64,000 bases of DNA from Gemmatimonadota bacterium (GTDB lineage: Bacteria > Gemmatimonadota > Gemmatimonadetes > Longimicrobiales > Gaopeijiaceae), in assembly GCA_022823225.1 (NCBI GenBank), contig JAJDXM010000050.1:1-64000 (forward strand), read 5' to 3'. This document shows positions 5,276 through 15,802 of this stretch, piece by piece. Below the pieces are notes generated by a model that made no database searches, was not told where the DNA came from, and saw nothing but the letters and a program-made list of their open reading frames with translations. Numbering within the stretch: position 1 is the stretch's first letter; every line of letters starts with the position of its first letter. Position numbers and translations under genes: made by a program.

Positions 5276-6921
5276 GAGAGAGGACGAGCACCCCGGCGCC
5301 GCGAGCCGCCAGGTCCCGGGTTCTCCTGGCCTGCGCGATCGGGGTGTCGGGGACCTGCCCGGCGATGGTGCCGTGCGCGCTGTTCGGTCAGGACGCGCAG
5401 CGGCCGATCGTCGTTGCCTCGAAGACCTTCGCGGAGTCGTACATCCTGGCGGAGACCTTCGCCCAGCTCCTGGAGTCCCACGGCTACCGGGTGGATCGGC
5501 GGCCGGGGTTCGGAATGACCGAGCTCCTCATGCAGGCGCTCATTGGTGGAGACATCGACGTCTACCCGGAGTACACCGGCACCGGACTCGCGGCGGTTCT
5601 CGGCGAAACCGCGACGGGTGGAGCCGTCTCGGTCTTCAACCGGGTCAGCGAAGCGTTCGACGCCCGCTGGGGACTGCGCTGGCTGCCGCCCCTGGGCTTC
5701 GAAAACACCTACGCGATGGCGATGCGCCGCGAGGTCGCCGACTCGCTCGATGTCCACACGCTTTCCGGAATCGCCGCGCTGGCGCCCGAACTGGCCGGCG
5801 GGTTTTCGCCCGATTTCATCGGCCGCGCGGACGGGCTCGACGGACTGGCCGCCGCCTACGGAATCCGCTTCCGTGAAACGCGCAGCCTGCTGCAGGCGGT
5901 CAAGTACCAGGCGCTCCAGGAAGGGGAAGTCGACGTGATCGACGCCTACTCGACAGACGGGGCGATTGCGCGCTACGACCTAGCGGTTCTGGCCGACGAC
6001 CGGGGCTTCTTCCCCCCTTATGATGCGGCGGCCCTGGTCGGCCGCGCCCTCCACGGCGAACGGCCCGGCGCGGTGTTGGTGCTGAGCCGACTGTCCGGAA
6101 GGATCGACGTCGCGGCCATGCGGCGGGCCAACCGGCGGCTCGAGGTCGACGGATGGCCGGTTGGGGAGGTGGCGGCGGCATTGCTCGCCGAGATCGGGAT
6201 GCCCGTGGATTCGGCGGCTCCGGGCACCGCGCGGGTCGAACGCGGGCCGCGCGACCGGCGCGCGACGGGGATCCTGCTCGCCCTGCCCGGCCACCTGCTG
6301 GACAACCGCAACGAGCTGGCGCGGCAGATCGCTCGTCACCTGCTACTGGTTCTCACCTCCCTTGCTGCGGCGATTCTCGTCGCGATTCCCACAGGTGTGG
6401 CACTCGAGCGGCGGCGGCGGCTGGCCGGAGCCGCGATACGCGTGGCGGGAATCCTGCAGACCGTCCCCAGCATCGCGCTTCTCGCCTTCATGATTCCGGT
6501 TCTGGGGATCGGCGTGGCCCCTGCGGTCGCGGCGCTCTTTCTGTACTCGCTGCTGCCGATCCTTCGCAATACCCACACCGGGATCATCGAAGCCGCACCC
6601 GAGGCGGTGGGGGCGGGTCGCGCGCTGGGGATGACGGAGTGGCAGCTGCTGCGACGAATCCGGCTTCCCCTGGCGGCTCCGGTGATCATGGCCGGGGTCC
6701 GCACCGCGGCCGTCATCAACGTCGGGACCGCGACCCTCGCCGCCTTCATCGGCGCCGGCGGGCTGGGCGATCCGATCGTGGCCGGGCTGACCCTGTCGGA
6801 TCCGGTGATGATCCTCTCGGGCGCGGTTCCCGCGGCCGCGCTCGCGCTGCTGGTGGACTGGGCACTCGGGGAGGCGGAGGCGGCCGTGGCTCCCGGAGGG
6901 GTGGCGGAGGATCGAAGGTAG
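5272..6921 (+). CDS. Fused substrate-binding protein and permease of a betaine/choline-type ABC transporter
   Basis: A 549-residue membrane protein combining binding protein and channel. A signal-anchor-like segment (residues about 18-42) precedes an OpuAC-type binding domain (about 48-310; SKTFAESYILAETFAQLLE, DVYPEYTGTGL). A permease domain follows with about five helices and the EAA loop EAVGAGRALGMTEWQLLRRI (about residues 335-535). Better known fusions (OpuABC, EgtU type) put the binding domain after the permease; here it comes first. Ligands in this family include glycine betaine, choline, carnitine and ergothioneine, and I cannot tell which applies. The start ATG overlaps the stop of the ATPase gene (ATGA). 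Confidence 0.88.
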   Translation: MRERTSTPAPRAARSRVLLACAIGVSGTCPAMVPCALFGQDAQRPIVVASKTFAESYILAETFAQLLESHGYRVDRRPGFGMTELLMQALIGGDIDVYPEYTGTGLAAVLGETATGGAVSVFNRVSEAFDARWGLRWLPPLGFENTYAMAMRREVADSLDVHTLSGIAALAPELAGGFSPDFIGRADGLDGLAAAYGIRFRETRSLLQAVKYQALQEGEVDVIDAYSTDGAIARYDLAVLADDRGFFPPYDAAALVGRALHGERPGAVLVLSRLSGRIDVAAMRRANRRLEVDGWPVGEVAAALLAEIGMPVDSAAPGTARVERGPRDRRATGILLALPGHLLDNRNELARQIARHLLLVLTSLAAAILVAIPTGVALERRRRLAGAAIRVAGILQTVPSIALLAFMIPVLGIGVAPAVAALFLYSLLPILRNTHTGIIEAAPEAVGAGRALGMTEWQLLRRIRLPLAAPVIMAGVRTAAVINVGTATLAAFIGAGGLGDPIVAGLTLSDPVMILSGAVPAAALALLVDWALGEAEAAVAPGGVAEDRR

Positions 6922-6933
6922 GGCCAGGTTCCG

Positions 6934-8028
6934 GTGGTGAATGCCCTGCGCCGTTTCCTGCTGCCCGGCTTCGTCTTCCAGTCGGTCGTGATCGCGGGGG
7001 GGTATGGTACCGGCCGCGAACTGGTCGAATACTTCCTCTCCCGGGGCCCGCTCGGCGGGCTCCTGGCCATGGCCCTGTCCACACTCCTCTTCAGCGCGGT
7101 GTGCGTGGCGAGCTTCGAGTTCGCACGCGTCTTCCGCGCCTTCGAATACCGGAGCTTCTTCCAGAAGCTGCTGGGGCGCCACTGGGTCGCTTTCGAGGTT
7201 CTCTACATCGCGCTGATGATGATCGTGCTGGCAGTGATCGGCGCGGCCGCCGGGTCGATCTTCGAAGAGACCTTCGGCCTGCACTACCTCGCCGGGGTCG
7301 CGGCCATCATGACCCTGGTAGCCGCTCTGGTGTTCGGCGGCAACCGGTTGATCGAGCGGGCCTTCACCGGGTGGTCCGCAGTCCTCTACCTCGTCTACGC
7401 GATCTTCTTCGTCTGGTGCCTGGCCAGCTTCAGCACGGAGATCCAGGCCGCGCTCTCGAGTGGCGAGATCGAGGGAAGCTGGGTCCGGAGCGGCTTCGAG
7501 TACGTGGGCTACAACCTCGGTGTGTTGCCTGTCGTGCTGATCACGATTCGGCACGCCCGCAGCCGGCGCGACACTTTCGTGTCCGGCCTCCTCGCGGGGC
7601 CCATCGGGATGATCCCCGCCCTTCTCTTCTTCGTGGCCATCGCCGGTCAATACCCCGGTATCGTGGACGAGAGTCTGCCGGCCAACCGGATGCTGTCGCT
7701 GCTGGGCTCGCGCGGCTTCCAGATCGCTTTCCAGGTCATGCTCTTCGGCACCCTGGCGGAGACTGGCGCGGGGCTCATTCACGCGGTGAACGAACGTATT
7801 GCGCAAGGGTACCGCGACAGGGCCCGGGAGCTTCCCTCGCTCACCCGGGTCGTCGCCGCGGTGGGCATGCTCGCTCTCGGCGCCCTGATCGCACAGGTCG
7901 GACTGATCCCGCTGATCGGCGTCGGCTACCGCTATATCTCCTACGGATACCTGGCCGTCTTTGTCCTGCCGGTGCTCACCTGGGGACTGGTCCTGATCGG
8001 CCGGGAGCGCCGCGGCGCAAACGGTTGA
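6934..8028 (+). CDS. YkvI-like polytopic membrane protein
   Basis: A 364-residue integral membrane protein with about ten hydrophobic segments spread over its whole length. It resembles the poorly characterised YkvI family, distantly related to LeuT-fold/APC transporters; the glycine-rich first helix (VVIAGGYGTGRELVEYF) and the later segment YVGYNLGVLPVVL fit. Substrate unknown. The start is one of two adjacent GTG codons (6934, 6937), 12 nt after the ABC fusion gene, so it may be the last gene of that operon. Its 3' end overlaps the convergent MFS gene by 53 nt. Confidence 0.7.
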   Translation: MVNALRRFLLPGFVFQSVVIAGGYGTGRELVEYFLSRGPLGGLLAMALSTLLFSAVCVASFEFARVFRAFEYRSFFQKLLGRHWVAFEVLYIALMMIVLAVIGAAAGSIFEETFGLHYLAGVAAIMTLVAALVFGGNRLIERAFTGWSAVLYLVYAIFFVWCLASFSTEIQAALSSGEIEGSWVRSGFEYVGYNLGVLPVVLITIRHARSRRDTFVSGLLAGPIGMIPALLFFVAIAGQYPGIVDESLPANRMLSLLGSRGFQIAFQVMLFGTLAETGAGLIHAVNERIAQGYRDRARELPSLTRVVAAVGMLALGALIAQVGLIPLIGVGYRYISYGYLAVFVLPVLTWGLVLIGRERRGANG

Positions 8029-9184
8029 TCGCGTGGATGCCCGCAACAGGCCCCAGGGCGAGCAGGGAGAATGCCCAGCGCCAGCCGATGGCCTCGGCAA
8101 CCCAGGGGATCCCCTGCACCGTCAGTGATGCGAGCAGAAAGCCGGCGCACGTCTGGAGCGTCAGGGCGGTCCCGGCGGCCTCCGCCGGCGCCACTTCGGT
8201 TACGAGCGCGCTGAACTGGGCCGAGTCCGCCACGACGAAGAAGCCCCAGACCAGGGTCACCGCGACCACCAGCACGAACTCCTGGCCGAAGACGATCCCG
8301 GCCAGCAGGCAACAGAGTCCGCTGATCGCCATCGCCCGGTTGACCAGCTTCTCGCGCCCGATACGATCCGCGACCAGTCCGCCCCACACGCATCCGAGTC
8401 CGCCGGCTGCCAGTGCTCCGAAGCTCGCCACTTCGACGTAGGCGCCGCCGTGCCCGGCCGCCTCGCTCGAGGCCGCCAGATAGGCGGGCACCCACGCCCA
8501 CATCGCGTAAAGTTCCCACATGTGCCCAAGGTATCCTGCCGTCGCGAGTCGGGTCTCGCGGTGGCGCACCACCCGGGCTGCAAGACCCCAGGAGAACGGC
8601 CCCCTCCGAAAGGCGTGCGGTCCTTCGCGGTAGAGGACGAGCACCAGAACACCCGCGGCCAGCGCACCGGTCGACGCGCCCACGATCACCGTGTCCGCGC
8701 CCGCGTCCGGGAGCGCCTTGAGGAGATACGGCATGGCCTTCCCCACGGTCAGCGCGCCGACGATGGTCCCGATCGCAAGTCCCCGCGCCGACCGGAACCA
8801 GGTGGCGGCCATCTTCATCGCCGGAGGATAGACCCCGGCCAGGAAGAACCCGGTCGCAAAGCGGAGCGCGACCGCCTCGGCAAATCCGGGCGCCAGGAGC
8901 ACACCGGCGTTCGCGAGCGCAGCCAGGGCCGCGGCTGCCGCGAAGTAGAGCCGCGAGCGGATGACGTCGGCCAGATTGAGGACGGCCGCCGCCGCGGTCC
9001 CGGCCACGAATCCAAGGTTGACCGCGGTGGAAAGCCAGCCGGTCCCGGTGGGCGACAGGGCCCATCGCGCTCCGAGGTCCTCCGAAACCGCCGTAGCCGT
9101 GAACCAGAGCGACATCCCCAGCAGCTCGGCCACCCCCAGGAGGGTGAGTATCCACCAGCGCACGGGACCGGCCGTCTCCTTCAC
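7976..9184 (-). CDS. Major facilitator superfamily transporter
   Basis: A 402-residue MFS carrier with about twelve transmembrane segments. The second-half A-motif-like loop GGLVADRIGREKLVNR, between helices 8 and 9, and FFLAGVYPPAMKMAATWF in the first half resemble nitrate/sugar-phosphate-type MFS proteins; the substrate cannot be read. I placed the start at the GTG at 9184, 8 nt after the stop of the upstream regulator gene. The frame stays open to 9298, but that would add 38 non-hydrophobic residues overlapping the neighbour. A basic RRGAPGRSGPVPR tail extends into the end of the convergent YkvI-like gene. Confidence 0.82.
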   Translation of the reverse strand: MKETAGPVRWWILTLLGVAELLGMSLWFTATAVSEDLGARWALSPTGTGWLSTAVNLGFVAGTAAAAVLNLADVIRSRLYFAAAAALAALANAGVLLAPGFAEAVALRFATGFFLAGVYPPAMKMAATWFRSARGLAIGTIVGALTVGKAMPYLLKALPDAGADTVIVGASTGALAAGVLVLVLYREGPHAFRRGPFSWGLAARVVRHRETRLATAGYLGHMWELYAMWAWVPAYLAASSEAAGHGGAYVEVASFGALAAGGLGCVWGGLVADRIGREKLVNRAMAISGLCCLLAGIVFGQEFVLVVAVTLVWGFFVVADSAQFSALVTEVAPAEAAGTALTLQTCAGFLLASLTVQGIPWVAEAIGWRWAFSLLALGPVAGIHAINRLRRGAPGRSGPVPR

Positions 9185-9192
9185 CGGAACCG

Positions 9193-10689
9193 CTACCGCT
9201 CCGGTTTCGCCTCCAGCATATCCGAGCCTTCGGTCATGATGCGAAAGCCCTCGCGCCGCAGGAGAAGGAACACATCCTCCCCCGGTGCGATCCCGCACGC
9301 GCCCAGCGCCTCCCGCAAGCGCCCGATCTCCGGACCATTGGGGTCGTAGGACCTCCAGATGACGGAGGCGTCATGCACACCGGGCGGGTGCTCAAAGGGG
9401 ATCTTCACCGATCCGTCGAGCCCGACGCCCAGGTATTGGGCGATCGCCGGGGAGATCTTCTGACTGTTTCCCTTCAGGTGATGCTCCCCCACGGTGAACC
9501 GGAGCGCCGGCGTCCCATCGGGAGCCCAGACCACATCGCGGGCCTCGGAGAGGTCCTGCCGGGGCGCGGAGGGCGCATCCGCCACCCGCACATGATCGCC
9601 CAGGACCTCGAACTTCCTCGTCCCGAGATAGTTGCGGACCGTCGCTGGAAGGACATCGAACTGCCGGGGTATTTCCTGCACCAGCTGATCGATGCGAGCC
9701 TGCCCGCCACCCTCTTCTATCCGCCGGACCAGAGCGTCCACGACACCGCCGTAGGGCTCGTCGGCCCACTCCTCCAGGCCCCATTTGTCCTTGGTGAAAC
9801 GAACGAAGAGCGGGTCGGAGGAGAGCAGGCTGGAGAGCGACGAGTTGTCTCTCAGGCCGGACTCGAGCGCGATGGTCTGCCTGACGCTGGGCTCGCCGAT
9901 CCTTTCAAGTGCAAGGAAGACCCGGGCGCGCCGCGTGTCGCGCAGCACCAGGTGCCCCTGAAGCCGGACCAGGCCGGCGTTGCGTGCAAGCGACTCCCAT
10001 TCCGCCAGGCCTCCGGCACCGATGGCCTCGCGCAGTCCCTCCTCGTCGATCACGCCCGCGGCGTTGGCCAGTTCGGGGGCGTGCAGCCGCGCCGTCTCGA
10101 TGTGCTTGCGGAACTCAGCGTCCCCGACGACCCCGTCGAGGTATCTGTACCCTCCGGCCTGCATGACCGCCACTTCCGCCGACTCCCTCCACGCCGGGTC
10201 GGAGTCGCCCACGAAAAGGCCCAGGATCCGGCGAAACTTCCAGGGCGGCGCGGCCGGCCCCACGGCACGCCGCAGCCACAACCCGGCCCTCTTCACCACG
10301 GCCCCCACCTGATCCTCAACTCTCCAGCGAAGTCGGACCTCCAGCTGTCTGGCTCTCTCGCGGCTCACCCCGAACCTGCTTCCGAGCGCGGCAAGCCGTT
10401 CAGGAGTCCGGGAGTACGTCCGCTCCCGGGCGATCACACCCTCTCGTGCCGGGAGCGCCGCGAGAACCGTACTGAACTCGGCGCCGATCTGAACATCCGC
10501 CCTGAGGGCCTCTGCGGCGTCGGCAAAGCTGATTTCCGCGGCCTGGCCCCGCAGTCCGCTCTGTTCAAGCAGATTGCTGAAGTCGAGCTTGGCGAGATCG
10601 GCCAGACTCTCGGCCCCGTGAAAAAAAACAGCGCAGGCGAGAACGCGATCCAGCGCGTCGCGGTATGTCAGGGAATCAATCAAGTGCAA
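9193..10689 (-). CDS. Sigma-70 region 4-like, multi-helix-turn-helix regulator of unknown function
   Basis: A 498-residue soluble protein. Residues about 94-120 (RTPERLAALGSRFGVSRERA, then RQLE) match the sigma-70 region 4 helix-turn-helix that contacts the -35 element, but no sigma region 2 or 3 is visible. Two winged-helix-like repeats follow; one runs from ARVFLALERIGEPSVRQTIA to FVRFTKDKWGLEEW, the next from GVVDALVRRIEEGGG to VLGDHVRVAD. A C-terminal domain contains LRFTVGEHHLKGNSQKISP. This layout recalls bacterial 'sigma factor-like HTH' proteins of unknown role. The start appears to be TTG at 10689 without an obvious ribosome site, so the N-terminus is uncertain. It is followed 8 nt later by the MFS gene, which it may control. 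Confidence 0.7.
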   Translation of the reverse strand: MHLIDSLTYRDALDRVLACAVFFHGAESLADLAKLDFSNLLEQSGLRGQAAEISFADAAEALRADVQIGAEFSTVLAALPAREGVIARERTYSRTPERLAALGSRFGVSRERARQLEVRLRWRVEDQVGAVVKRAGLWLRRAVGPAAPPWKFRRILGLFVGDSDPAWRESAEVAVMQAGGYRYLDGVVGDAEFRKHIETARLHAPELANAAGVIDEEGLREAIGAGGLAEWESLARNAGLVRLQGHLVLRDTRRARVFLALERIGEPSVRQTIALESGLRDNSSLSSLLSSDPLFVRFTKDKWGLEEWADEPYGGVVDALVRRIEEGGGQARIDQLVQEIPRQFDVLPATVRNYLGTRKFEVLGDHVRVADAPSAPRQDLSEARDVVWAPDGTPALRFTVGEHHLKGNSQKISPAIAQYLGVGLDGSVKIPFEHPPGVHDASVIWRSYDPNGPEIGRLREALGACGIAPGEDVFLLLRREGFRIMTEGSDMLEAKPER

Positions 10690-10723
10690 GTAGTGAGGTT
10701 GAATTTCTCAAACAACACAGTCT

Positions 10724-10752
10724 AAAATACAAGATCATGTGAGGCGCGGCAA
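10724..10752 (-). promoter_or_regulatory. Candidate promoter of the sigma-like regulator gene
   Basis: On the minus strand TTGCCG (10752-10747) and TATTTT (10729-10724) are 17 nt apart, about 35 nt upstream of the TTG start at 10689. The gap between this gene and the divergent aminotransferase is distinctly AT-rich compared with its surroundings. Confidence 0.4.
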
Positions 10753-10820
10753 CCGGTGTGCGCGAAACGGCCCGAAGCGTTCTCTTGCGGGGTATTACGC
10801 ACACCTCTACCGTCCGTGTC

Positions 10821-11987
10821 ATGAGTCAGCGCACAGCCACCCGCACACATACCTTCACGGAGTCCGTCATCCGCGAGATGTCGCGGGTCGCACGCACGTT
10901 CGATGCGATCAACCTCGCGCAAGGCTTCCCCGACTTCCCGGCGCCCCGGTTGTTGAAAGACGCGGCCTGCCGCGCGATCCAGGACGACATCAACCAATAC
11001 GCGATCACCTGGGGGACTCCTTCGCTACGGTGCGCCCTGGCCCGAAAACACACTGAATGGTACGGCCTGGAGCGTGACCCCGATCGTGAGATCACGGTTA
11101 CCTGCGGCGCCACCGAAGCCATGGCGGCCGTGATGCTCGCTGTTGTGGATCCGGGCGAGGAGGTCATCGTTCTCGAGCCATTCTACGAAAACTACGGCCC
11201 CGACGCGATAATCTGCGGTGCGGCCCCGGTCTTCCTGCCGCTGTCCCCGCCCGGGTTCCGACTCGACCCGGACCGGCTGCGCGCCGCCGTAACGCCGCGC
11301 ACCCGGGCCATCGTGATCAACACGCCGAACAACCCCTCCGGCCGCGTCTTCGACCAGGCGGAAATGGCCCTCGTGGCAGAGGTCTGCACGGAGCACGATG
11401 TCCTGGCGATCACCGATGAGATCTACGAGCACATTGTCTTCGAGGGCCGCCACATTCCGCTCGCCGCGATGCCCGGGATGCGCGAACGCACGATCGTGGT
11501 TTCAGGGCTTTCCAAGACGTTCAGCATCACCGGGTGGAGGATCGGCACGATTGCCGCGCCCCCCGGGCTCACCGACGCGATCCGCAAGGTACACGACTTC
11601 CTGACGGTGGGGGCACCCGCTCCGCTGCAGGAAGCCTGCGCGGCGGGCCTCAAGCAGCTTGGCCCCGACTACTACGCCGGGATCGCCCGGGACTACCGGG
11701 AGCGACGCGACATCCTGTACCGCGGTCTTCGCGACGCAGGCTTTTCGTGCACCGCGCCGGAGGGGGCATATTACATCATGGCCGACTTCTCGTCCCTCAG
11801 CGACCTCGACGACGTTCGTTTCAGCACCTTCATGGCCCGTGAGTGCCGCGTGGCGCCCGTGCCCGGCTCGTCGTTCTACAGCCGTCCCGAAGACGGCGGC
11901 AGCCTGGTGCGGTTCGCCTTCTGCAAGCGGGCCGCGACGCTCCGGGAAGCGGTCGTTCGGCTGCGCGCCTTCTTCGTCGGAGGCTGA
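10821..11987 (+). CDS. PLP-dependent aminotransferase, class I/II
   Basis: A 388-residue fold-type I aminotransferase. INLAQGFPDFPAP near the N-terminus and INTPNNPSGRVF are typical of the kynurenine/methionine/aspartate aminotransferase subgroup. SGLSKTFSITGWRIG carries the PLP lysine, and VRFAFCKRAATL near the C-terminus the carboxylate-binding arginine region. The amino donor cannot be fixed from sequence; methionine, glutamine, kynurenine or aspartate are candidates. I prefer the ATG at 10821; an in-frame GTG at 10758 would add 21 residues unlike the family. Neither start has a strong ribosome site. The SRPBCC gene follows after 3 nt, presumably in the same transcript. Confidence 0.88.
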   Translation: MSQRTATRTHTFTESVIREMSRVARTFDAINLAQGFPDFPAPRLLKDAACRAIQDDINQYAITWGTPSLRCALARKHTEWYGLERDPDREITVTCGATEAMAAVMLAVVDPGEEVIVLEPFYENYGPDAIICGAAPVFLPLSPPGFRLDPDRLRAAVTPRTRAIVINTPNNPSGRVFDQAEMALVAEVCTEHDVLAITDEIYEHIVFEGRHIPLAAMPGMRERTIVVSGLSKTFSITGWRIGTIAAPPGLTDAIRKVHDFLTVGAPAPLQEACAAGLKQLGPDYYAGIARDYRERRDILYRGLRDAGFSCTAPEGAYYIMADFSSLSDLDDVRFSTFMARECRVAPVPGSSFYSRPEDGGSLVRFAFCKRAATLREAVVRLRAFFVGG

Positions 11988-13915: not shown

Positions 13916-14542
13916 GTTGGTCACACCTTGCTCGAAGTTCTGCCTGCGTCGCTCGGGGCAGGCAGCTTCTCCGTGACGGATGGGACAAGGGGGCACAGGT
14001 GCGCACATACGACCGCCGCCCCTGGAAATCGGACCGAGCAACCCTCGCCGGGCCCCTTCGATAGCCACGGGTCCCGCGAAGTTCGATGATACGTCGCCAT
14101 CGGCAACAACTGCCTGGAACCTGCTCGGCGCCGTCCCAACCAAGATTGAGAGCCCGTGACCGATTCGCAAGGGCGGACCGCTTCACGTGCCGGTTGCCGA
14201 CCCTTTTCCGCCTCCTTGCCGATGGCCATCTTCATCACATGAAAGGACCGCACAGAGGCGCAGAGGAAAAGGACGAACCGGCACCGTTCGCGGCGAAGTT
14301 CGCATTGACGATCGCCCCGTTCGTTCTCGTTGGGGCATTGCTTCTGTTGCACAGGTGCATCTGACCATGCGTCCCCGGCCGGCAACATCCGGCCGTGGCG
14401 ATTTCGGGACAATGTCGGCCCACTTAGGAGGCTCCAGCCCTGGCAACCGCCTGCAGGACAAGGAATTGCCTGAGCGAACGACTCCTGGCACGGTCGATGC
14501 ATCGAGAATCCCGCATTCGCTGACCGGATCGGGAGAGTGACC
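13916..14542. other. Long intergenic region between rho and the RSAP-repeat protein gene
   Basis: This 627-nt gap contains no convincing gene except a possible 41-codon reading frame (14239-14364). It must hold the leader and promoter of rho (minus) and the promoter of the secreted-protein gene (plus). On the plus strand TTAGGAGG at about 14425, with a potentially pairing CTCCT near 14483, could form a structured leader. I could not match it to a known riboswitch. Confidence 0.4.
14239..14364 (+). CDS. Possible 41-residue single-pass membrane peptide
   Basis: An ATG at 14239 opens a 41-codon frame with a charged N-terminal half (KGPHRGAEEKDEPAPF) and a hydrophobic C-terminal helix (FALTIAPFVLVGALLLLH). 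The charge-then-helix arrangement looks protein-like. There is no recognisable ribosome site, however, and the region is otherwise non-coding, so it may be chance. Function unknown. Confidence 0.25.
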   Translation: MKGPHRGAEEKDEPAPFAAKFALTIAPFVLVGALLLLHRCI

Positions 14543-15802
14543 ATGAAGAAACCAATCGTGATTCTCGCTGCTGCATCGGCGCTCGGGGTGCCGGCGGCCG
14601 GGAGTGCCCAGGTTTTCGAGGGAGTCTTCCTCGGATTCGGCCTGGCCGGACATCACTACCCCGAATACGAATACGGCCTGGGCCTGGGGCTGGCCCGGGT
14701 GCCGCTGGGCGATCCCTACCACTCCCGGCGGGGGTTCAGTCTCGGGGTCGGAGTCGGGTTCGGGGTCGGGTTCGCTCTCTCCTACGACAGCCATGGCCAC
14801 GGTGCCGGCGGCCATCTCTACGACTACTACGGCTTCGGCGCGCGGGACCTCCACTATTGCCACGACTACTGGCACGGGTACTACTGCGAGTGCGCCTACC
14901 ACGCGGGCTGGGCCCACGGCTGGGGATGGCACGATCATTGGTATCGGCCCACTACGGTGGTCTTCGGATGGCCCCGCTTCCACTTCGACCGGTACTCGTT
15001 CGGTCCGTACTGGCGCGACCCCTACCATGACTGGTGGGGCTATCGCGGCTGGGACCCCTACTGGGGATACCAGCGCTACCGCACCGCCTACGTCGACTAC
15101 GACCGGGGATACGGTCGCACCCGCGTGGCAACCCGTTCTCCCCTGTTTGGCCCACGCTACAAGGAAGACCCCCGGCCGGCCGTCCTGGTGACGGACAACG
15201 GTCCCGAGCGCCCGGTGTCGCGGGCAGTTCCCCGAGGCGACCGGACCGACAGGCTGGCCGGGATCGCCAGCAGCCGTCCAAGCACCAGGCGTGGCGACCA
15301 GGGCGCCCGCACCGAGACGACGACCCGAACTGCACAGCCGAGGGTGCGCGCCCGACCGGAGGTGGCACAGGACAGGAGCGCCGGCAGGGCATCGCCGCGC
15401 GAACCGGTGAAGACTTCCAGGCCCGCTGCCCGGATTCGGACGACTCCCACCCGGGGATCGGTCCCCACCACCCGTTCCGCACCGGTGCGGTCAACCAGGC
15501 CCGTGACGCGGTCGTCACCTGCAGTGCGTTCCGCTCCGACGACCCGGTCCGCTCCGCCCAGGGTGCGCTCCGCTCCGACGACCCGGTCCGCACCGCCCAA
15601 GGTGAGATCCGCTCCGACGACGCGGTCCGCACCGCCCAGGGTGCGATCGGCTCCGACGACGCGGTCCGCACCGCCCAAGGTGCGATCCGCTCCGCCCAGG
15701 GCACGGTCCGCTCCAGTCCGGACAACGCCCCCCAAGGCACGCTCCGCCCCGCCCCGGCGGTCTCCGCCAAAGTCTGCCCCGCCCAGGCGGCGCGGCAACT
15801 AG
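14543..15802 (+). CDS. Secreted His/Tyr/Trp/Gly-rich protein with C-terminal RSAP tandem repeats
   Basis: A 419-residue protein of unknown function. A signal peptide (PIVILAAASALGVPAAGSAQ) is followed by a glycine/aromatic region (about residues 25-200) very rich in His, Tyr, Trp and Asp, for example HYCHDYWHGYYCECAYHAGW. A strongly basic, Pro/Ser/Thr/Arg-rich tail follows (about 230-419). Part of the tail is four tandem 13-residue units (VRSAPTTRSAPP plus R or K). The ATG at 14543 has GGGAG 7 nt upstream; a GTG lies two codons earlier. Composition suggests an envelope or extracellular protein whose tail could bind polyanions and whose His-rich part could bind metals; both are guesses. Confidence 0.75.
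   Translation: MKKPIVILAAASALGVPAAGSAQVFEGVFLGFGLAGHHYPEYEYGLGLGLARVPLGDPYHSRRGFSLGVGVGFGVGFALSYDSHGHGAGGHLYDYYGFGARDLHYCHDYWHGYYCECAYHAGWAHGWGWHDHWYRPTTVVFGWPRFHFDRYSFGPYWRDPYHDWWGYRGWDPYWGYQRYRTAYVDYDRGYGRTRVATRSPLFGPRYKEDPRPAVLVTDNGPERPVSRAVPRGDRTDRLAGIASSRPSTRRGDQGARTETTTRTAQPRVRARPEVAQDRSAGRASPREPVKTSRPAARIRTTPTRGSVPTTRSAPVRSTRPVTRSSPAVRSAPTTRSAPPRVRSAPTTRSAPPKVRSAPTTRSAPPRVRSAPTTRSAPPKVRSAPPRARSAPVRTTPPKARSAPPRRSPPKSAPPRRRGN
15524..15679 (+). repeat. Four tandem 39-nt coding repeats
   Basis: Four consecutive 39-nt units begin at 15524, 15563, 15602 and 15641, each encoding VRSAPTTRSAPP plus R or K. Units alternate R-K-R-K at the last residue, suggesting a 78-nt duplication of a pair. 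Degenerate RSAP units flank them on both sides. Confidence 0.9.

Follow-up and report, generated by a model that had tools for sequence, protein, structure and literature searches.

What is the role of a bacterial protein in which sigma region 4 stands without sigma regions 2 and 3? This question is raised by an open reading frame (ORF) on the minus strand, at positions 9193–10689 (498 codons, TTG start), of a 64,000-nucleotide stretch of contig JAJDXM010000050.1 from a Gemmatimonadota bacterium; this whole stretch is called the window below. The gene is fixed in its genus at a conserved place, and most of the other members of its family found in Gemmatimonadota lie in defense loci of the Ssp/Pbe phosphorothioate type. 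With moderate confidence we propose that its product is a chromosomally fixed, site-specific DNA-binding regulator, in which a helical N-terminus is followed by sigma region 4, then by winged helices in tandem and, at the C-terminus, by a B3-like domain. The best reading of its origin is that it was domesticated from a defense protein or shares ancestry with one.

The ORF, at first predicted from the letters and a list of translations, is real. Using the window protein as query, we found it in 22 of the 22 other genomes of the genus (the copy of genome G013 is cut by a contig end), so that, with the window's own genome, the core copy is present in 23 of 23. The ratio of non-synonymous to synonymous substitution rates (dN/dS) between the window gene and seven orthologues is 0.12–0.25, demonstrating purifying selection, with synonymous differences in this comparison that are near saturation (0.57–0.68 per site). 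A chance ORF is ruled out by these two results. Codon 3, likewise TTG, lies in the alignment where the ORFs of the closest orthologues, as called mechanically, begin.

Modules of the protein

Residue numbers are those of the structure model, which starts at codon 2. The N-terminal helical region (residues 6–64; positions 10495–10671, minus strand) is predicted by AlphaFold2 with a pLDDT of 67–79 in blocks from residue 11 on and matches no Pfam family. It is followed by sigma-70 region 4 (residues 67–125; 10312–10488, minus strand), which in the model spans residues 67–142 and ends in a long last helix. The recognition helix contains RERARQ (10345–10362, minus strand); in sigma factors the letters RERxRQ contact the -35 element. 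They are kept in 29 of the 36 aligned family members, the window protein included, and in all 21 rows of the core clade, to which the window copy belongs.

For the single window protein, the Pfam family of sigma-70 region 4 reaches 16.4 bits (cut-off 24.1) over residues 75–118, with a weaker match of DUF3782 over the helix of this region, and these residues are also hit by partial sigma models of NCBIfam (best E 1.8e-5). Among PDB sequences, a profile of the 36 members reaches E 4.5e-11 with region 4 of RpoH, other RpoH and RpoD entries following with weaker scores, and Sigma70_r4 is matched at E<=0.5 by 35 of the 36, again including the window protein. The predicted fold resembles region 4 of SigmaA (Foldseek probability 1.00 at E 0.2; VIA Z 8.2). 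Neither sigma region 2 nor sigma region 3 has a Pfam match in the window protein (Sigma70_r2 none at E<=10); for the 36 members, Sigma70_r2 is not among the 25 of 42 Pfam families listed, and Sigma70_r3 has a weak match in two (best E 0.0014). The lone region 4 noticed in the sequence-only reading is thus borne out by Pfam, NCBIfam, the 36-row profile and the predicted fold. That reading had also named a profile match to a fully characterized family with another function as the result that would speak against it; over its length the window protein matches no characterized family in Pfam, NCBIfam or PADLOC, the last giving no match at all. MzaA of the MZA anti-phage system was rejected as a candidate, its model NF041931 scoring 10.2 bits against a cut-off of 800, over sigma region 4 only.

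The AlphaFold2 model of the whole protein, built from a 22-row alignment, has a pLDDT of 85.5 and a pTM of 0.52, a value at which the relative positions of the domains are not trustworthy. Four winged-helix-like units follow sigma region 4, all on the minus strand: unit 1 (residues 148–188; 10123–10245) and unit 2 (residues 190–247; 9946–10119), both delimited by the predicted secondary structure; unit 3 (residues 252–307; 9766–9933), which in the model ends in a single FVRFTKDKWGLEEW motif and whose wing (residues 296–311) is poorly predicted, with a pLDDT under 50; and unit 4 (residues 313–368; 9583–9750), for which winged-helix structures are also matched with Z about 7 over residues 307–372. 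Two repeats of an FVRF/KWGLEEW type had been suggested earlier. The FVRF...KWGLEEW motif occurs once (residues 294–307), and the four units show no sequence similarity to each other, the hhalign probability being under 3% in six of six pairs of the four segments; these segments are short and some overlap by a few residues, so this miss leaves a common origin possible. HARE-HTH (PF05066), matched weakly by seven of the 36 members (best E 0.0038), has no Pfam match in the window protein, and no catalytic domain is recognized there by Pfam.

The C-terminal domain (residues 386–488; 9223–9531, minus strand), which had been called uncharacterized, is predicted to be a DNA-binding pseudobarrel of the B3 type, the fold of plant B3 factors and of the restriction enzymes EcoRII and BfiI. 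Already with the whole model, Foldseek matches VRN1 with probability 0.98, and VIA matches LlaJI.R1 (Z 8.1) and VAL1 (Z 7.6). Folded alone from 17 rows, the domain has a pLDDT of 92.7 and a pTM of 0.85; in Foldseek VRN1 is then first (probability 1.00, E 0.029), and ranks 1–9 are all B3 or ARF domains. VIA-align of the domain alone is headed by LlaJI.R1 (Z 7.9, rmsd 3.2, 98 aligned residues) and VRN1 (Z 7.9, rmsd 2.9, 95 aligned), with VAL1 (7.6), ARF1 (7.4), FUS3 (7.3), NGA1 (7.1), EcoRII (6.4) and BfiI (5.8) further down. Rows 1–23 are all of the B3 type, including LlaJI.R1 and At1g16640, whose rows do not name the type, and the next row has Z 4.0; two NgoAVII B3 entries stand lower (Z 3.7 and 3.2). 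This uniform list of 23 rows and the drop after it make the B3 assignment persuasive, the Z values alone not being decisive. The Pfam B3 family has no match in the window protein, and no viral or PDB structure is matched at E<=0.001. A double-psi barrel of the Cdc48-N type was considered as well: 7dg9 is the first match of a 23-row sequence profile of the domain (E 0.074), a profile whose PDB matches at E<=10 include no B3 chain, but above Z 4.0 the domain model matches B3-type structures only, with the reservation that the absence of Cdc48 from the VIA list proves nothing by itself. In the 21 core rows 38 of the 99 positions of the B3 region are invariant, with blocks such as HHLxGNSQK and IWRSYDPNGPE, which may form DNA-contacting arms. 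The predicted B3-like domain also makes it more likely that the protein binds DNA on its own, one of two modes of action put forward in the sequence-only reading.

Inheritance and surroundings of the gene

The distribution of the gene is narrow. With the window protein as query it was found in none of 12 genomes from other genera of the family and in none of 24 from other families of the order. In a profile search of 395 genomes of the phylum, in which two candidates were scored per genome and further copies may be missed, the long matches among those listed were confined to the genus and six other genomes (G196, G114, G396, G122 with two, G128 and G096); the remaining listed matches, none above 44 bits, are confined to sigma region 4 and the residues around it. 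The window-like copies of G196 and G114 join the core clade (21 rows, support 100/100) and adjoin the same aminotransferase gene as the window copy.

In the window this divergent class I/II aminotransferase gene occupies positions 10821–11987 of the plus strand (Aminotran_1_2, 201 bits), and a gene for an MFS transporter (7976–9184, minus strand; MFS_1, 72.9 bits) adjoins the other end of the sigma4/B3 gene. A possible GTG start of the MFS gene lies only 8 nt past the stop of the sigma4/B3 gene, so the two are likely to be co-transcribed. The aminotransferase is the most constant neighbor, present in 18 of 19 loci (17 from the genus whose flanks are long enough, plus G196 and G114), and an MFS match lies downstream on the same strand in 14 of the 17 genus loci, with imperfect ORFs in L035 and L038; the ORFs were called mechanically, and of ten window genes used as probes one, an ABC permease, gave nothing and was not used. 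The window copy belongs to a separate clade and is inherited with its surroundings. The advice to look for defense or transport genes nearby proved a good guess on both counts, given the MFS gene downstream on the same strand and, for relatives of the gene, phosphorothioate defense loci; the window copy itself, flanked by the MFS and aminotransferase genes, is not in an Ssp/Pbe locus.

Seven members of the family from other genera, picked from the list of aminotransferase matches and not at random, have the aminotransferase, but in none of the seven is the sigma4/B3 gene beside it. On this observation, and not on base composition, the gene may have been acquired once, by the ancestor of this small clade.

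Base composition had been the earlier argument, the AT-rich island at the promoter being taken as a hint of different ancestry. The island exists: positions 10641–10740, which take in the first codons of the sigma4/B3 gene, are the least G+C-rich 100-bp stretch of the window (0.44 vs 0.687 overall, in 10-bp steps), and the intergenic region up to the aminotransferase gene (10690–10820), the presumed promoter and operator, has a G+C content of 0.527. The different ancestry drawn from it is not supported. The gene has a G+C content of 0.670 and a GC3 of 0.807, compared with 0.665–0.708 and 0.788–0.852 in five neighbors, and the 110 bp upstream have a G+C content of 0.47–0.58 in 18 of 21 loci. 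Since orthologous upstream regions are similarly AT-rich, the island looks like an ordinary divergent promoter region, in which it is to be expected. A recent foreign origin was rejected in view of the neighbor-like G+C and GC3, the conserved synteny and the similar upstream composition. Inspected by eye, some loci of the genus (L034, L035, L043, L046 and others) have GCYAG directly 5' of the TTGAC element in their sigma-70-like promoter, a possible operator; in the window's own subclade no GCYAG was seen, and CTTGTATTTTA...TGTTTGAGAAAT is found instead.

Relatives in phosphorothioate loci and on plasmids

Of the eight further Gemmatimonadota members found, seven are encoded in Ssp/Pbe phosphorothioate loci, as identified by PADLOC. 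Hence a DNA-recognition protein of the defense type was probably domesticated, or split off, in the ancestor of the genus and two other genera of the family. In the tree the core clade stands next to a group of five rows from phosphorothioate loci together with L092, with support 100/99; the actinobacterial rows and two further phosphorothioate-locus rows (L032 and L090) sit on long branches at uncertain positions, and rooting is by midpoint.

The window's own genome contains a second, longer member (35% identity; L030, 2594–4735), and so do G018 and G021. Compared with the window protein, the three defense-locus members of the genus show 26–34% identity (E 2e-14 to 7e-64). PADLOC identified SspC, PbeA and PbeC beside the members of the own genome and G018, and PbeA and PbeC beside that of G021. 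In L030 SspC is truncated by the contig end; the SspC gene of the own genome is split over the start of contig G000:C89 and contig G000:C26, about half on each. The L030 relative has no match in phage records. Outside the genus, the members of L088, L089 and L090 lie in phosphorothioate loci too, and a shortened member in L091, whose alignment starts at residue 200, has SspC and SspD as neighbors in a phosphorothioate locus that has no PbeA match. The gene order in L089 is SspB, SspC, SspD, sigma4/B3, PbeA, PbeC, and in L030, L031, L088 and L089 alike the sigma4/B3 gene stands between SspC or SspD and PbeA. L092 is a long form in a genome (G096) with no match to SspC or PbeA. SspA/DndC-like and ATPase-like ORFs in these loci that have no PADLOC match were judged by eye.

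PbeA scores above 400 bits at eight places in the 395 genomes, a limit set after the list had been seen and leaving out 14 other matches at 207–245 bits. Six of these eight loci contain a sigma4/B3 gene, in five of them directly next to PbeA and on the same strand; less in favor of the association, the gene in L090 is about 3 kb from PbeA, on the other strand and beyond PbeC. The seventh locus, in G186, has a sigma-4 gene without a detectable B3 domain, adjoining that of a DNA methyltransferase, and the association of sigma-4 genes with Pbe systems may be a wider one. This Pbe-type locus (L105; G186:C96, 3161–10132) comprises the DNA methyltransferase (N6_N4_Mtase, 125.7 bits), an ORF judged by eye to be ABC ATPase-like, PbeA and a protein of 439 aa in which sigma region 4 is matched strongly at the N-terminus (50.8 bits) and B3 is not detected. 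The eighth locus (L104, on G004:C36) is an exception to the linkage: the 14.5 kb fetched contain no sigma4/B3 gene. By eye, one ORF there resembles a cysteine desulfurase and two resemble ABC ATPases. Six of the 16 SspC matches are on contigs beside a sigma4/B3 gene, and none of five SspC loci on contigs without a PbeA match (L106–L110) has one (profile search, E<=1), so the linkage seems to be with PbeA rather than with SspC.

Relatives with 25–34% identity were also found on Actinomycetota plasmids, in 18 and 15 records with two queries. One of these proteins, WP_197491897.1 of Microbacterium chocolatum, is homologous to 82% of the window protein (26% identity) and is labeled 'sigma factor-like helix-turn-helix DNA-binding protein', an annotation label only, the phrase not being found in the literature searched. 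The sigma-4, winged-helix and B3-like segments of these plasmid proteins align with those of the window protein, but their N-terminus is longer and their neighborhoods are those of plasmids, and RERxRQ is lost in four of four aligned Mycobacteriaceae members while the rest of the protein persists. On an Arthrobacter plasmid PbeA (695 bits) lies 0.3 kb downstream of the relative, and a DndD-type ATPase 6.8 kb further on; the four Mycobacteriaceae members have no phosphorothioate genes among their annotated neighbors. In three of the 36 family members, among the long ones, Pfam finds a C-terminal domain of the RNA polymerase alpha subunit (alpha-CTD; RNA_pol_A_CTD, best E 8.5e-6), and the window protein has no match to it. 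The L081 locus of Nonomuraea gerenzanensis contains two neighboring members on the same strand (5491–7761 and 9635–11479), the first of which has no Pfam match at E<=0.05 and matches the C-terminal part of the family profile.

Possible roles: local regulator or recognition subunit

The modules found here are known one by one, including helix-turn-helix (HTH) domains of the sigma type in defense proteins, but their combination in one protein is apparently undescribed: no description of sigma region 4 with winged helices and B3 was found in the literature searched, outside which most subscription journals and supplements lie. Nor is a sigma-4/B3 protein named in the parts of PMC10853773 and PMC6459918 available to us, and the sigma4/B3 proteins, which have no PADLOC match, are none of the named Ssp or Pbe proteins inside whose loci the relatives are encoded. 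According to the available part of PMC10853773, PbeA combines an HKD nuclease with an SF2 helicase in one chain, and the other Pbe proteins are a CxC ABC ATPase (PbeC), a small protein (PbeB) and a cognate of DndE (PbeD); that of PMC6459918 reports that DndCDEA-PbeABCD protects against a haloarchaeal virus.

A divergent aminotransferase gene and an MFS gene downstream on the same strand form the layout of a local regulator. Such a regulator is also the simplest account, because the protein has three kinds of DNA-reading modules and no recognized catalytic domain, is fixed beside a divergent gene and probably leads an operon. In the proposed mechanism, the B3 domain would read a specific site, the winged helices would add affinity, and sigma region 4 would dock on a -35-like sequence or contact RNA polymerase; the protein would thereby govern expression of the divergently transcribed aminotransferase gene and of the operon that it shares with the MFS transporter. 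In the defense form, the family might have a second job, choosing DNA for PbeA. What the computation shows is the predicted anatomy, the conservation, the synteny, the clade structure and the association of the relatives with defense loci; sequence specificity, control of the neighbors, the direction of domestication and any polymerase contact are inferred.

Several results weigh against this proposal. On the side of the B3 domain, no Foldseek match in the PDB has an E below 0.029, every VIA Z of the domain alone is below 8, a range in which the tool warns of chance similarity, and the 25 of 42 Pfam families listed for the 36 members include neither B3 nor EcoRII-N. Invariant positions are only slightly more frequent in the B3 region than elsewhere (21 of 61 in sigma region 4 and 21 of 60 in each of winged helices 3 and 4, that is, 34–35%), and mean conservation is highest in winged helix 3 (0.800 vs 0.789 in the B3 region). 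As to the target, no site came to light: across the genus the upstream regions give a poor alignment, and by eye they contain no motif beyond sigma-70-like TTGAC and TATnnT elements. The presumed targets are not constant either, the MFS neighbor missing in three of the 17 genus loci (L028, L043 and L039) and in both loci of other genera, and the aminotransferase in one of the 19 loci (L039). The direction of change is not fixed by a tree with a midpoint root and long branches, in which L032 and L090 stand apart from the main phosphorothioate group. Finally, a transcriptional role does not follow from sigma region 4, because HTH domains of the sigma type in defense proteins may be plain DNA-binding modules.

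A broader account, which we put forward only tentatively and consider somewhat doubtful, is that the sigma4/winged-helix/B3 protein is an overlooked sequence-recognition subunit of Pbe systems, a B3 reader acting in trans to PbeA, and that the window gene is such a reader exapted to a genus-fixed transcription factor in which sigma region 4 would serve promoters. An immune DNA reader would then have turned into a gene regulator, on the fold that plant B3 transcription factors also use.

It is also unlikely, in our view, that the protein is the specificity subunit of a restriction machine and not a transcription factor; in phosphorothioate loci it would tell PbeA, with its phospholipase-D (PLD) nuclease and SF2 helicase, where to act. 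The linkage to strong PbeA loci, the sigma-4 gene of the seventh locus and the repetition of the sigma4/B3–PbeA pair on the Arthrobacter plasmid all agree with such a role. Known enzymes also provide a precedent: according to the part of PMC4267653 available to us, in CglI and NgoAVII a PLD nuclease carries a B3 domain that reads the target, 5'-GCCGC-3', and works with a DEAD helicase. The predicted fold of the recognition domain is shared with R.CglI and R.NgoAVII (the latter aligning weakly), BfiI, EcoRII and LlaJI.R1, but in these proteins B3 belongs to a nuclease or a nuclease system, whereas in the window protein its fusion partners are sigma region 4 and winged helices. In R.CglI and R.NgoAVII the nuclease itself carries the B3 domain; here that domain would sit in a separate protein, and the window copy would act in trans or be a relic. 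Sigma-like HTH domains inside defense proteins are described for DndH and BrxL in the available parts of PMC10853773 and PMC12839542; these two are ATPases (of the HerA/FtsK or MCM type), unlike the window protein, and a B3-like domain is not mentioned for them there. The distribution of the core copy argues against a specificity subunit: it is present in 23 of 23 genomes of the genus and PbeA above 400 bits in only four (the own genome, G004, G018 and G021), which makes the core copy independent of PbeA. In addition, the neighbors of the window copy are metabolic and transport genes, and the two genes also occur apart, in the L091 phosphorothioate locus without PbeA and the G004:C36 PbeA locus without sigma4/B3.

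Still less probable is an appropriator of RNA polymerase, also raised in the sequence-only reading, whose sigma region 4 would displace that of the holoenzyme on the beta-flap tip, while B3 and the winged helices would direct the polymerase to chosen promoters. The best structural matches of sigma region 4 include chimeras of SigmaA region 4 and the beta flap (8d5v_D, Z 8.2), and the alpha-CTD-like segment of three members would give two promoter-contacting modules in one protein. The beta-flap contact is, however, suggested only by the sigma-4 fold, which fits every sigma-4 structure irrespective of what it binds; the window protein lacks the alpha-CTD match, and the loss of RERxRQ from otherwise intact Mycobacteriaceae plasmid members does not fit such a role. 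The available part of PMC12839542 describes an alpha-CTD-like domain followed by three winged helices in PglW of type 2 BREX, so that this pair, which resembles the long relatives from phosphorothioate loci, need not mean transcription; PglW itself is a kinase with a STAND-like end, and neither sigma-4 nor B3 is mentioned for it there.

An ordinary orphan regulator, with sigma region 4 as one more HTH in a protein that binds no promoter but its own and is functionally unconnected with the defense relatives, is very unlikely: sigma-4-like HTH folds are common, and inheritance with the surroundings, the likely operon with the transporter and the divergent neighbor would suit it, but the architecture shared with defense-locus proteins at 26–34% identity is left unexplained.

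If the preferred reading of a local, site-specific regulator is true, an unnamed family combines three DNA-reading modules that are usually met far apart: a piece of a bacterial sigma factor, winged helices, and a B3 fold otherwise seen in plant factors and in restriction enzymes. Its defense members would be candidates for an unassigned function of Pbe-type phosphorothioate systems, the choice of target DNA. The genus-wide stand-alone copy would then be a natural experiment on the way in which a defense reader becomes a regulator.

Further along the window, an ORF on the plus strand (14537–15802) encodes a protein whose first half is rich in glycine, tyrosine and histidine and whose long tail consists of RSAPPR/TTRSAPP-like repeats; it is found at the same place in the orthologous loci, where it is only 33–49% identical.

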